In this document: piece by piece, positions 5,916-14,616 of the stretch | Layout of the letters: each line of letters opens with the position of its first letter | Numbering within the stretch: position 1 is the stretch's first letter | From: Candidatus Brocadia sapporoensis | GTDB taxonomy: Bacteria > Planctomycetota > Brocadiia > Brocadiales > Brocadiaceae | DNA length: 62,496 bases | Direction of reading: 5' to 3' | Assembly: GCF_001753675.2 (NCBI RefSeq) | Contig: NZ_MJUW02000021.1 | Span: 1-62,496 of the forward strand | The notes under the pieces: model-generated | Seen by the model: only the letters and a program-made list of their open reading frames with translations | Told to the model about the DNA's origin: nothing | The model's database searches: none | Position numbers and translations under genes: made by a program

Positions 5916-6446
5916 TTGGTAAGAAAAAGTCTTTTTGCGGGTTTAATTGCTGGTATATGTGTGATTGCGGCCCATGGCTTTGCTGAAGATAAACTGAAGG
6001 AGGAAAAAGAAAAAAGTGAATTGGCCAAGATTATGGGTGAAATAGATAAAAACTATAAAGCTGCAGAACGGATATCGGGATATTATAAATACAATGATAA
6101 TGATTGGAGTGATTTAGCAGAAGCGAGTGCAAACATCGTTCAACTTACAAAAGTGGTGATTAGTAAGTTTTCACGGCCTGATGATAAAAAGTATCAGGAT
6201 CTTAATAAATCGATGTTGTCTGAGGCCGAAAAGATGTTAGAAGTTACAAAGCGTAGGAATGAAAAGGGTGCATTGGAAGATGCGCAATGGCAGGTGCGGC
6301 GGTTAAGGCAGACATGCGCAGTATGTCACAAACACTTGGGGATTCATCTTTATCCACAGTTGTATCCTGGTAAAAAGGACGAATTGCAACCTGGCCAGGA
6401 AGAAATCCCGGCTCCAAAAGAAACCGGTGTGCCAAAAGATTGGTAA
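5916..6446 (+). CDS. cytochrome c'-like (class II) monoheme protein with C-terminal extension
   Basis: A 176-residue exported protein starting at TTG, with GGAGG nine bases upstream. Residues 1-23 form a signal peptide (VRKSLFAGLIAGICVIAAHGFA). The mature part is highly helical and ends its bundle with a CAVCH heme site at 134-138, the order of class II cytochromes c (cytochrome c'), where the heme motif sits near the C terminus. Unlike its neighbour at 7058 it has no cysteine other than the two heme cysteines, so any sixth heme ligand must differ. A 38-residue Pro/Gly/Glu-rich tail follows the heme site. Role inferred: periplasmic or anammoxosomal electron transfer or NO binding. It sits 610 bases upstream of the naxLS-type pair and has its own promoter. 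Confidence 0.8.
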   Translation: MVRKSLFAGLIAGICVIAAHGFAEDKLKEEKEKSELAKIMGEIDKNYKAAERISGYYKYNDNDWSDLAEASANIVQLTKVVISKFSRPDDKKYQDLNKSMLSEAEKMLEVTKRRNEKGALEDAQWQVRRLRQTCAVCHKHLGIHLYPQLYPGKKDELQPGQEEIPAPKETGVPKDW

Positions 6447-6529: not shown

Positions 6530-6558
6530 TTGACTCGTTTTATTTTCAATGATATAGT
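6530..6558 (+). promoter_or_regulatory. sigma70-type promoter upstream of the naxLS-type pair
   Basis: TTGACT (6530-6535), a 17-base spacer and TATAGT (6553-6558) make a near-consensus promoter. It points at the cytochrome pair beginning at 7058, leaving a predicted untranslated leader of nearly 500 bases. Confidence 0.55.
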
Positions 6559-6880
6559 GTCGGGACTTGGGAGTTTAAAAACTAATCTGATCGTTATACT
6601 ATAGAGTACCATAAGTAAGAGCTGGCTACTATCCGCTGTGCCTCATATTTCCCATACTTCTTTCTGCATTAAAGATGCATGAGCCATTGCTCTGTAATAA
6701 TCTTGATCTATTTTTGGTTTGTCTTTCACAGAACGAAAAGGAAAGCGTTTTACATAAAAAGCCGAAAGATGCAAGAATGAGAAAAAAAGGGCAGAGATTT
6801 TTTTCTTGCTTTTTAAAGAATGTGAAATTGTAACTTGACACAGTGATGCGCTCAGATTTTTAGTAACGAAGGGAGGTGAA

Positions 6881-6913
6881 GTGAAAAATCAGAAGCTTAG
6901 GGGTGAATTCTAA
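6881..6913 (+). CDS. possible 10-residue leader peptide
   Basis: A GTG codon follows an excellent GGGAGGTGA ribosome site at 6871-6879 and opens a frame for MKNQKLRGEF before TAA. It lies in the long leader of the naxLS-type pair. No attenuator structure was recognised after it. It may be a regulatory leader peptide, the stub of a lost gene, or chance. Confidence 0.25.
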   Translation: MKNQKLRGEF

Positions 6914-7057
6914 TATTTCAGAGTCTAAACACGGATTGAAGAATAGCGGCCCTTTTTGTTTTAGTCTATTTATTATGGGAAATGATTGTCTTGGAAGAAA
7001 TTCGATAAGAGTCTGGAGATTGTAAGTAATTTAAAAAAAGAAAGTGAGGAGGAAAAA

Positions 7058-7468
7058 ATGAGGTTAAAAAAAGGTATTTTTGCAGGAACAATTACCTTGT
7101 TCGTTGCAGCGATGTCGTCAGTGAGTTATGGACAGGCAAGCCAAGCCGAGTTATGCAAAAAAATGTGGGATGATTTTCAGGCAATGAGAGCAATGACCGG
7201 ACTTTCCGCGGCTGATGATAGTAATTTTGGTAAATTTTCGGCGGCAGCAAAGGCAATTACCGCAGATACGGAGATCTCCAAGAGCAAATTTGCAACGGAT
7301 AAAAATTATAACGTATTGAATGACGAGGTCATTTATCATTCAAACGAAATTGATAAAGCGGCAGCAAACAAAGATTTGGAAGAAATCCAGGTACAATTCA
7401 GAAGGCTAACCATAGCCTGCAGGAATTGTCATAAGATTTATAGATCAGAGCTGAAACTGGTTCCGTAA
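7058..7468 (+). CDS. naxL: class II c-type cytochrome, NaxLS-type subunit with extra Cys ligand
   Basis: A 136-residue precursor with a strong ribosome site (GAGGAGG) and a signal peptide ending about SVSYGQA. The mature protein is a four-helix class II cytochrome with a C-terminal CRNCH heme site (121-125). One further cysteine, Cys33 in AELCKKMWDDF, lies at the start of helix 1, where the distal face of a cytochrome c' heme is. The anammox NaxLS complex is a heterodimer of a class II and a class I cytochrome with rare His/Cys heme ligation; it binds NO and associates with hydrazine synthase. This gene and the next, 50 bases apart, match that arrangement. Calling this subunit L rests only on it being the larger of the two; the family assignment is firmer than the letter. 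Confidence 0.75.
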   Translation: MRLKKGIFAGTITLFVAAMSSVSYGQASQAELCKKMWDDFQAMRAMTGLSAADDSNFGKFSAAAKAITADTEISKSKFATDKNYNVLNDEVIYHSNEIDKAAANKDLEEIQVQFRRLTIACRNCHKIYRSELKLVP

Positions 7469-7518
7469 TATACTTAAATATCATATCCTACATAATCTAA
7501 ATGAGGAGGGTTTGAATA

Positions 7519-7899
7519 ATGAAATTGTTCCGTTTATCATATATAGTGCCTGTTGTTGCAGGTTTAGGGTTATCTTTGGCGAGTTCTGTATGGGCATTAA
7601 CGCACCATACCCCTGGCGACACTACAAAGAGCCCTTATACGATTTTTGCTGGTCTTGGTTTTGCGGTTCAGGAGAGCTGTTATTATTGCCACGGAAATGG
7701 TGGTAAGGGCACTGCCAAGGGTCATGAGTATGGAGTGCCAGATTTTACAGATCCGGCTTTTCAAAGTGCTTGGACAGATGAAGCGCTTGTAAAACACATC
7801 AATGCAGGAAAAGGAAAATGCCCTGGGTATCAGGGAAAGATGTCACCGGAAATGATTGAGAAGATGGTGGAGATTGTAAGGAATTTTGGCTCGAAATAA
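7519..7899 (+). CDS. naxS: class I c-type cytochrome, NaxLS-type subunit with Cys in place of axial Met
   Basis: A 126-residue precursor with GGAGGG upstream and a signal peptide ending about SSVWA. The heme site is CYYCH (54-58). In ordinary class I cytochromes the sixth ligand is Met in a G-x-G-x-M-P segment; here the segment reads GKGKCPGYQGKMSPE, so Cys101 occupies the Met position. That is the expected signature of His/Cys ligation, which in the known NaxLS complex gives unusual spectra and a very low redox potential. It is translated from the same transcript as the class II subunit and is followed by a strong terminator. A later Met108 is an alternative but poorly placed ligand. The S letter is inferred from size. 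Confidence 0.75.
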   Translation: MKLFRLSYIVPVVAGLGLSLASSVWALTHHTPGDTTKSPYTIFAGLGFAVQESCYYCHGNGGKGTAKGHEYGVPDFTDPAFQSAWTDEALVKHINAGKGKCPGYQGKMSPEMIEKMVEIVRNFGSK

Positions 7900-7943: not shown

Positions 7944-7987
7944 AAAGGGCATATGAAATATTCATTTCGTATGCCCTTTCTTTTTTT
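7944..7987. terminator. rho-independent terminator between convergent genes
   Basis: A 16-bp stem (AAAGGGCATATGAAAT pairing with ATTTCGTATGCCCTTT, one G.T pair), a 4-base loop and a T-rich tail follow the class I cytochrome. The A-rich left flank means it may also terminate the convergent hydrolase gene on the minus strand. Confidence 0.85.
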
Positions 7988-7993
7988 GTAAAA

Positions 7994-8536
7994 TCAGGAC
8001 GCTGAAATAATATCAGCATGGAAAAGATGACGCATCTGCTCTATAGCAAATTGGTGTTCGTGTTGTGTAAGTGCGGCAACACAATTGTCAGGTATTACAA
8101 TCTGATAGCCTCTCATATAGGCTTCCGCTACGGTATATAATATACAGATATTGGTGACAACCCCGGTTATGATTATGTGAGTGATACCACACCTTTTCAA
8201 TATCCTGTCCAGAGATGTTTTGTAGAAACAGGAATAACTGGTCTTATTAACCAAATAATCTTGTCTGTGTGGATGAAGTTCTTTGATAACCTGAGCGCCA
8301 TCGGTTCCCTTTACAGCATGTCTGGACCACAGCTTAAATTCTCTATCAAATTTTTTATGCGCGTCGCAGCAAAAAATAACGGGAATGCGCTTCTTTCTTG
8401 ATTTTTTAAGTTCCTTTTTAATGTTATCGATTATGGCTCGTGCCTTTGGTACCTCCAAGGGAGCGCCTTCTTTGACGAAATCATTTAACATGTCACAAAT
8501 AAGGAGTGCACACCGTGCTTTATCATGTTGTTTCAA
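7994..8536 (-). CDS. isochorismatase-family cysteine hydrolase
   Basis: A 180-residue protein of the isochorismatase-like hydrolase fold (nicotinamidase, ureidoacrylate and other amidases). The catalytic triad can be placed: Asp15 in LLICDMLNDFV, a Lys in YLVNKTSYSCF, and the nucleophile Cys in GVVTNICILYTV, which also has the family's cis-peptide VVTN pattern. The substrate cannot be read from sequence. The start is TTG, with GAGG about ten bases upstream. It lies 31 bases downstream of the metallo-beta-lactamase-fold gene and is probably cotranscribed with it. Confidence 0.85.
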   Translation of the reverse strand: MKQHDKARCALLICDMLNDFVKEGAPLEVPKARAIIDNIKKELKKSRKKRIPVIFCCDAHKKFDREFKLWSRHAVKGTDGAQVIKELHPHRQDYLVNKTSYSCFYKTSLDRILKRCGITHIIITGVVTNICILYTVAEAYMRGYQIVIPDNCVAALTQHEHQFAIEQMRHLFHADIISAS

Positions 8537-8567
8537 TATTTTTATACCTCTTCAGAGAAACCAAGCC

Positions 8568-9335
8568 TTATACTATAACACGGGTAAAATCTTCCGCAAA
8601 AATGATCTCACCCTTATAAACGTCTTTCAGGGCATTATTCAAATGGCTATTATTCTTTCTGAAGGTATCGCATATGGGATAAAAGTGCGATAAGACCAAT
8701 CTATCACATTGGGATTCATGCGCAATTTGTGCACAAAGACGTGGCGTTAGGTGCCCTTCTGCCGTTTGATCGTTTGGAAGAGAACATTCAAGAACCAACG
8801 TATTAACTTTTTCAGCGAGGCGAAGAATCCCGTCGCAATACCCCGTATCGCCTGAGTATGTTAAAGTTTTGCCATCCATGGATTCTATACGGTAGCCGAT
8901 ACTGTGTATTGTATGTTGTACTGGTTCCACGATAATTTTCCAGCCGTCAAATTTTCTTTCCCCTTTCTCAATTTCGCAGAAATGCAGGTCAAAGGTCTTC
9001 GGTTTTATAGTTTCACCAAACACTGATAGCAAACCTTCATAAAATGTCTTTAATCCCATAGGTCCAGTAACATAAAGTGGCTTGGTTCTTTTTGGGTCAT
9101 TATATCGCATCGCAAAAAGGATGGAAACGAGATCTAACGAATGATCAGGATGAAAATGGGAATAGAATAGGTGGTCAATATCTAAATAGGTAACATCCGC
9201 AAGGAACAACTGACGTAAAGAGCCTGGGCCGGTATCAAAAACTAAATATTTTTCTTTTATCTTTACAAGGGTACAGGGATATGCCCGCGTCTTCGATGGT
9301 GTTCCCGTACCAGAACCGATAATGGTTAATTCCAT
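8568..9335 (-). CDS. metallo-beta-lactamase-fold hydrolase, RNase Z-like
   Basis: A 255-residue protein with the zinc-site series of the RNase Z/arylsulfatase branch of the metallo-beta-lactamase fold: HFHPDH after a first beta domain, a His in EPVQHTIHSIGYRI, an Asp in SGDTGYCD, and a late His in VLSHFYP. The GSGTGTPSKTRAYPC start resembles RNase Z-type proteins. It lacks the long exosite arm typical of bacterial tRNase Z, so a small-molecule or phosphodiester hydrolase is as likely as tRNA 3' processing. It is the first gene of a two-gene minus-strand unit with the isochorismatase-family protein. Confidence 0.85.
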   Translation of the reverse strand: MELTIIGSGTGTPSKTRAYPCTLVKIKEKYLVFDTGPGSLRQLFLADVTYLDIDHLFYSHFHPDHSLDLVSILFAMRYNDPKRTKPLYVTGPMGLKTFYEGLLSVFGETIKPKTFDLHFCEIEKGERKFDGWKIIVEPVQHTIHSIGYRIESMDGKTLTYSGDTGYCDGILRLAEKVNTLVLECSLPNDQTAEGHLTPRLCAQIAHESQCDRLVLSHFYPICDTFRKNNSHLNNALKDVYKGEIIFAEDFTRVIV

Positions 9336-13005: not shown

Positions 13006-13080
13006 CTTGCTCATCATTGTCAATACACACATGAAACCACATGAGGCATTTACTTGTCCAATTCTGCCAAAGGAGATAAG

Positions 13081-14616
13081 ATGACTCACCCGTTAGATTA
13101 TTACGAAGCACAGCATAGCAACCATCATACGCCCTCCATCTTAAATCCCATTACAAGAAAAAACAGAGCGGCTTTTGATTCCCCGACTTCCGTTTTCTTG
13201 TCCTCATCAAGGAAGATACGGGTGGATAAAAACAATTTCTCAAACATGTATCTTGTACATTATAATATCGCAAATGTATCTCTAAAACATTTCACCCTTG
13301 TGATCATTTTTGCCGGATTGTTTTTGCTTGCCAGTTGCTCGACTCAAAAGGAAACGACGATCACCCATCAGAAAACGGTCATCTCTGCTCGTGAGGAAAA
13401 ACCTGCACTTACCAAAAGTGAAGTGACATTGACCATTCCCAAAAAGGAGAGAGGAATCACTGAAGAATCCTTGAAATGCATAACGTGTCATGAAGAACAT
13501 GGCATTACGCATGGGTGGGTAGCAGATTGGGAAGGTAGCAAGCATGCAAGAAAAGGTGTGGGATGTGAGATGTGTCATATCAGTTCTGTCACAGAACTGG
13601 CAACAATGGAAGCCACAGAATTGGAATATCTTGGCTCACAAGGAAGCAATTGTGAGGACAAAAAAGTTCGCCGTCATGTCGCAGCCAGCATGTGTGGCAA
13701 ATGCCATAAAAAAGAATACCAGGAATTTATGAAAAGCCGACACTCCATTGGCTGGGAGCGAATGCTTGAGTGCGGAAACCTCATGTCAATTCCAAAGGAC
13801 ATCCGTTCAACAAAATGTGGACAGTGCCACAATATCCAATTCAAATGTGATTCATGCCACACCCGACACACCTTTAGCACCCTTGAGGCGAAAACTCCGG
13901 AGGCATGCAGAACATGTCACACGTGTTCAGATAATCCGCATTATGAGATGTATATTTCCTCCAAACACGGAAGTGTTTATATGGCAAGTCAATCTGGCAT
14001 ATTAAAAGAATCTCAAACCGTTTCCTCCCTAAGATCCCCTGTCTGTGTTACCTGCCATATGCCTCAGGGTACTCATGATCTCAGTTTCGGACTTACCCAT
14101 GGCCCGGTTGCTGGAAATGGACCCTATTATATCAATAGAAACGGAGCCGCTATAGATGAAGTTGAATTTACAAAGAAAAGAATAGACATGCTGTCGATCT
14201 GTAATATATGCCACTCATTCCCTTTTGCAAAAAAGACATTACTGGATGCTGATGACGTATACAAAAACGTTGAGGCTGTTATAAAAGAGGCTCGGGATAT
14301 CGTCTCTGAGTTGGAAAGAGAAAATCTATTGTCTCTATCAATGATCAAAACAGCGGGAATGCTTTTGCCTAGCCACGCCTCCGTTCAGGAGACCTTACCA
14401 TCGTACACAAACAAATCCAGGACAGAACGCTTGTTTATCAAATTAACACAGAGCGCCGCTGTTAGCTGGAAAGGAGCTTTTCATGAGAATCCAGGTTATA
14501 CAAACTTATGCGGGTGGTCAAAACTCCAGGAAGATTTGAGTGATATGAGAGAAGAGGTAAAGAAGATCCATGAAGAGGTAGAATTTCAGAGAAAGATGAA
14601 AATGAAATTACGGTAA
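13081..14616 (+). CDS. octaheme c-type cytochrome, HAO-like, probable lipoprotein
   Basis: The protein has eight CxxCH motifs: CITCH (133), CEMCH (162), CGKCH (205), CGQCH (246), CDSCH (256), CRTCH (276), CVTCH (322) and CNICH (374). Their spacing, the segments SSKHGSVY and CVTCHMPQGTH, and a heme-free helical C terminus place it in the hydroxylamine oxidoreductase (HAO) octaheme family, which oxidises hydroxylamine or hydrazine or reduces nitrite in anammox cells. Whether Tyr473 (HENPGYTNLCGW) equals the tyrosine that cross-links the catalytic P460 heme must be aligned. An AAAGGAG site marks 13081, but a hydrophobic run ending in LLASC (lipobox Cys86) suits a start at 13246 better, which has no ribosome site. 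The mature lipoprotein would face the periplasm or anammoxosome. Confidence 0.85.
   Translation: MTHPLDYYEAQHSNHHTPSILNPITRKNRAAFDSPTSVFLSSSRKIRVDKNNFSNMYLVHYNIANVSLKHFTLVIIFAGLFLLASCSTQKETTITHQKTVISAREEKPALTKSEVTLTIPKKERGITEESLKCITCHEEHGITHGWVADWEGSKHARKGVGCEMCHISSVTELATMEATELEYLGSQGSNCEDKKVRRHVAASMCGKCHKKEYQEFMKSRHSIGWERMLECGNLMSIPKDIRSTKCGQCHNIQFKCDSCHTRHTFSTLEAKTPEACRTCHTCSDNPHYEMYISSKHGSVYMASQSGILKESQTVSSLRSPVCVTCHMPQGTHDLSFGLTHGPVAGNGPYYINRNGAAIDEVEFTKKRIDMLSICNICHSFPFAKKTLLDADDVYKNVEAVIKEARDIVSELERENLLSLSMIKTAGMLLPSHASVQETLPSYTNKSRTERLFIKLTQSAAVSWKGAFHENPGYTNLCGWSKLQEDLSDMREEVKKIHEEVEFQRKMKMKLR

Follow-up and report, generated by a model that had tools for sequence, protein, structure and literature searches.

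In anammox metabolism, the route by which electrons and NO arrive at hydrazine synthase (HZS) is an open question, and the cytochrome pair NaxLS is the leading candidate. The locus described here raises the question of whether two adjacent monohaem cytochromes belong to this complex, and which of their cysteine haem ligands are essential to it. The window analysed is a stretch of 62,496 nucleotides from Candidatus Brocadia sapporoensis (contig NZ_MJUW02000021.1), in which an earlier note had proposed a NaxLS-type pair with cysteine at both distal haem positions. The features identified are listed in Table 1.

Table 1. Features of the naxLS locus, in window coordinates
Feature	Position	Strand	Description
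NaxL paralogue	5916..6446	+	Class II-like monohaem cytochrome; Met40 at the NaxL ligand position; CxxCH at 134
Probable naxL promoter	6530..6558	+	TTGACT-17-TATAGT, TG-extended; ~500 nt 5' of the ATG
Leader element	6868..6881	+	14 bases, GAAGGGAGGTGAAG (GAAGGGRGGTGAAG); conserved 5' of naxL
naxL	7058..7468	+	Class II (cytochrome c'-like) monohaem c-type cytochrome with signal peptide; Pfam Cytochrom_C_2
NaxL Cys33 codon	7154..7156	+	Predicted sixth haem ligand; aligned to Kuenenia C32
naxS	7519..7899	+	Class I monohaem c-type cytochrome with signal peptide; Pfam Cytochrome_CBB3
NaxS Cys101 codon	7819..7821	+	Predicted sixth haem ligand; aligned to Kuenenia C101
Terminator-like hairpin	7944..7979	+	3' of naxS; 16 pairs, T tail

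Genes and ligand residues of the cytochrome pair

The two genes are located on the same strand, separated by 50 nt, and a separate ribosome-binding site and N-terminal signal sequence could be read for each. The naxL gene starts at ATG 7058 and encodes 136 aa (stop at 7466-7468); a TTG start at 6986 is a mechanical extension. The naxS gene starts at ATG 7519 and encodes 126 aa. Cysteines occur in NaxL only at positions 33, 121 and 124, with a single CxxCH motif at 121-125, and in NaxS only at 54, 57 and 101, with a single CxxCH at 54-58. Since the remaining cysteines all belong to these motifs, each protein has one non-haem cysteine, in agreement with the count given in the earlier note. The haem site of NaxL comprises the proximal H125 and the predicted distal thiolate C33, and C101 is the predicted distal thiolate of NaxS.

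The best PDB matches of NaxL and NaxS were the Kuenenia NaxLS crystal chains 6r6m_A (E 3.9e-36) and 6r6m_B (E 1.4e-49), respectively, and not unrelated His/Met cytochromes. In these alignments, C33 falls without gaps on the ligand cysteine of 6r6m_A, and C101, within the segment GKGKCPGYQ, on that of 6r6m_B. According to their PDB titles, 6r6n is a C32M/C101M mutant and 6r6o a C32G mutant; the mutated positions correspond to C33 and C101 here. The NaxL model, built from the family alignment (pLDDT 82), is a four-helix bundle with a TM score of 0.89 to 6r6m_A, and its first mature helix (29-44) contains C33, as had been claimed for helix 1. The locus encodes a Kusta0087-type class II subunit and an adjacent Kusta0088-type class I subunit, both with their ligand cysteine. 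The Kuenenia complex (Kusta0087/Kusta0088, PDB 6r6m) was reportedly described by Akram et al. in 2019 (J Biol Chem 294:16712).

These residues could also belong to two plain His/Met or five-coordinate cytochromes carrying one incidental cysteine each, given that five-coordinate haem is common in class II cytochromes and that NaxS paralogues have a Met ligand. This reading conflicts with the exact register of both cysteines with the ligand cysteines of 6r6m. Moreover, among 60 aligned orthologues from five Brocadiales families, the NaxL ligand cysteine was invariant (60/60), which places the C33 match beyond chance, and the same holds for C101 because its spacing from the haem His58 is 43 residues in nearly all NaxS orthologues. 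Incidental cysteines are thereby refuted as far as sequence can do so, and we regard them as extremely improbable. With high confidence, the pair can be assigned to naxL-naxS of a Brocadia-genus anammox bacterium in which both haem-ligand cysteine positions are kept. By itself, it is an ordinary further orthologue of a known, solved complex.

Other genes were observed in the vicinity of the pair. Convergent with naxS, an isochorismatase-family hydrolase gene and a metallo-beta-lactamase-fold gene occupy positions 7994-9335; genes of these two types lie close to naxLS in 31 and 28 loci, respectively, including those of Bathyanammoxibiaceae, and were not seen in Kuenenia naxLS loci. At 13054-14616, the window encodes a member of the hydroxylamine oxidoreductase family (PF13447), an octahaem protein with eight CxxCH motifs (PDB 4fas, E 1e-24; HAO-like 6h5l, E 3e-23), which is a second anammox-type marker.

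Distribution and ligand variation in the Brocadiales

The naxLS pair was present in 61 of the 62 Brocadiales genomes and missing from all 13 genomes of the class outside this order. A NaxL profile scan of GTDB contigs yielded 47 relatives, all from Brocadiales (47/47). Across 392 genomes of the phylum, just two weak NaxL matches were detected outside the order, neither with a cysteine at the distal site; neither search found NaxLS outside anammox bacteria, and related class II cytochromes from elsewhere have no distal cysteine. Family f2, with its large genomes, was considered as a non-anammox host of NaxLS and rejected, as both genomes contain an HZS_alpha domain. The host genome of the window also encodes such a domain (G000:C50, E 1.5e-29), which, together with the restriction of NaxLS to the Brocadiales, agrees with the anammox origin that had been proposed. 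Two genomes from other families of the class, G064 and G065 (loci L123 and L124), showed 11 and 16 HZS_alpha-domain matches without NaxLS. These are open frames of ~770-1730 aa, apparently an expansion of proteins related to the middle domain of hydrazine synthase alpha.

The ligand position of NaxS varied among the 60 orthologues, with Cys in 50 and Met in 10. The Met forms were found in all nine Bathyanammoxibiaceae (family f3) and in one Loosdrechtia-genus genome (G033), so not every anammox NaxLS pair has the dual-cysteine state. The earlier note had taken the pair with both cysteines as the best anammox marker; this stands for the Brocadiales-limited pair but not for its dual-cysteine state. 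On a tree calculated without the ligand columns, two Cys/Met changes were needed. In G033, Lys-Cys is replaced by Asn-His-Met (KC to NHM) with one in-frame residue inserted, and the ligand there could therefore be Met or possibly His. A sequencing error behind this Met is unlikely, considering the in-frame inserted residue and the single-contig genome.

The Met forms might instead be degenerate, non-functional genes rather than working variants. The small number of independent changes (only two) and the inserted residue of G033, where His could be the ligand, leave some room for this explanation. Nevertheless, the reading frames are open, and synteny, the haem motif and the NaxL cysteine are all kept. 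The Met form is shared by nine members of one family, most of which have HZS_alpha. Met is also what normally ligates the haem in the class I fold, and the chain to which f3 NaxS aligns best is the C101M laboratory mutant. We consider degeneration improbable and treat the Met forms as natural variants, comparable to the C101M change in the double mutant 6r6n.

A further variation was observed in Scalinduaceae (f4) and f2, where NaxS keeps the ligand cysteine and has a second cysteine three residues on (GCTKC, NCTAC). This C-x-x-C corresponds to one change on the tree, and a disulfide or a ligand switch is possible at this site. In L084 and other f4/f2 loci, the ligand site reads GCTKCRGR.

The upstream paralogue and the naxL leader

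The proposal of a cytochrome pair was correct for naxL and naxS themselves and missed a third, linked class II cytochrome just upstream (Table 1). Comparison of this protein with NaxL by hhalign (probability 99) placed its Met40 on C33, and this Met was invariant in 56 of 56 sequences. Its profile matched 6r6n_A best, the NaxL Cys-to-Met mutant, and its model matched 6r6m_A best (TM 0.86); the protein is a NaxL homologue in which the ligand cysteine is replaced by Met. The gene was found across the order Brocadiales and was not detected in other members of the class. In 55 Brocadiales loci it precedes naxL on the same strand, an arrangement seen in nearly all complete loci of all five families, at a distance of 190-935 nt where the gap is fully sequenced (~600 nt in Brocadia). 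No discussion of it was found under the likely locus tags in the literature searched.

As a core cytochrome gene linked to naxLS in nearly all Brocadiales loci, it is a candidate partner, and this NaxL-like cytochrome probably serves the electron chain of NaxLS in a dedicated way, with an ordinary His/Met haem. Linkage is not proof of interaction, because the gap of ~600 nt contains a promoter-like block for naxL and because genus g15 of f3 carries the gene elsewhere on the chromosome.

The promoter-like block is a sigma-70-type match, and such matches are no more frequent here than in shuffled sequences; the block is conserved in Brocadiaceae. Further downstream, the long leader contains GAAGGGAGGTGAAG, which is followed by a conserved GCCCTTTT at ~6949-6957. 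All five families have the element, GAAGGGRGGTGAAG, in front of naxL; it varies slightly, and in a few loci the match is weaker. In nearly all Brocadiaceae, the genome contains one exact copy of GAAGGGAGGTGAAG, the one in the naxL leader, and its role as a genome-wide regulon motif was rejected for this reason and because the three other matches inspected had nothing in common with the naxL leader. A leader peptide behind the Shine-Dalgarno-like GAAGGGAGGTGAAG was likewise rejected, as neither a start codon nor a reading frame was conserved. At the RNA level, the leader offers just a 6-pair stem with weak covariation, and the region 6530-6970 had no Rfam match. Our guess is that GAAGGGRGGTGAAG may act in translational or transcriptional control.

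Function and comparison with known systems

By orthology, NaxL and NaxS of Brocadia would be exported to the anammoxosome and have haem attached covalently. They would form a low-potential heterodimer, with both irons His/Cys-ligated, that would be able to bind NO and dock on HZS. The Kuenenia NaxLS is described as a stable complex that pulls down with HZS (PMC8388095), and as a low-potential complex proposed to carry NO or electrons (PMC7438415). Its NO binding and HZS association are given as published (cited in PMC8388095 and PMC7438415), and its spectra are likewise known. According to PMC7438415, it is strongly expressed, its expression increases together with hzs when ammonium is limiting and nitrite in excess, and growth on NO lowers naxLS expression 20- and 10-fold (citing Hu 2019).

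The electron and NO roles are not exclusive, and sequence does not separate an electron carrier from an NO carrier. Folds of the four-helix cytochrome c' type commonly bind NO, and of the two cysteines only that of NaxL is invariant. NaxLS could serve mainly as an NO carrier or buffer, in which NO displaces the weakly held NaxL thiolate, is kept in the cell and is passed to HZS, with electron transfer being secondary. Published NO binding and the hypothesis put forward in PMC7438415 favour this role. The expression pattern reported there, down with NO and up under ammonium limitation, is explained at least as well by electron demand at HZS, and a 2025 paper (PMC12954380) favours electron transport, naming NaxLS as the most likely electron carrier to HZS. 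On balance, we lean slightly towards a low-potential electron shuttle feeding HZS as the job of NaxLS and find a primary NO role, the main alternative, doubtful.

The ligand variation suggests that the two haems differ in importance. Since the NaxL thiolate never varies and the NaxS ligand can be Met, the NaxL haem would be the indispensable special site, and NaxS a tunable contact or relay haem. Of the two ligands, the NaxL thiolate would be the special, essential one, and the ligand of NaxS could be retuned. Tentatively, and with nearly even prospects, we propose that the working unit may consist of three cytochromes rather than a pair: the His/Met NaxL paralogue, the His/Cys NaxL and NaxS. 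Within it, the NaxL thiolate would be the sole indispensable special ligand, and the NaxS ligand would have been retuned in evolution (Met or C-x-x-C). Natural single-ligand variants exist for asking which thiolate matters in hydrazine synthesis, and if the three-cytochrome proposal is true, the natural Met forms allow the role of each thiolate to be tested. The invariance of the NaxL cysteine, the NaxS ligand polymorphism, the linked paralogue and the leader element were not found in the literature searched, which did not include the primary 2019 NaxLS paper; part of the ligand polymorphism and linked paralogue may already be known.

Among known systems, the anammox class I cytochromes c-552 (5mxy, 7o38) share the class I fold and are the closest NaxS paralogues, but their axial-ligand segment has Met (GKNKMPAW in 7o38) where NaxS has Cys; we know of no NaxL partner for them. 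Class II cytochromes of the cytochrome c' type (PF01322), as well as the upstream NaxL-like protein, share the four-helix bundle and the C-terminal CxxCH with NaxL. They and their relatives lack the distal cysteine, with Met40 in the upstream paralogue and no cysteine in the weak planctomycete relatives. Ukita et al. (2010) are said to have described a heterodimeric low-potential cytochrome c from an anammox enrichment. The citing literature assigns that protein to the same complex type as NaxLS (PMC7438415). The closest counterpart is NaxLS of Kuenenia stuttgartiensis. The predicted Brocadia complex has the same fold classes, gene order, ligand cysteines and haem motifs, with a one-residue shift of the NaxL ligand in the precursor (C32 in Kuenenia, C33 in Brocadia) and an identity over the alignment of 56% for NaxL and 73% for NaxS.
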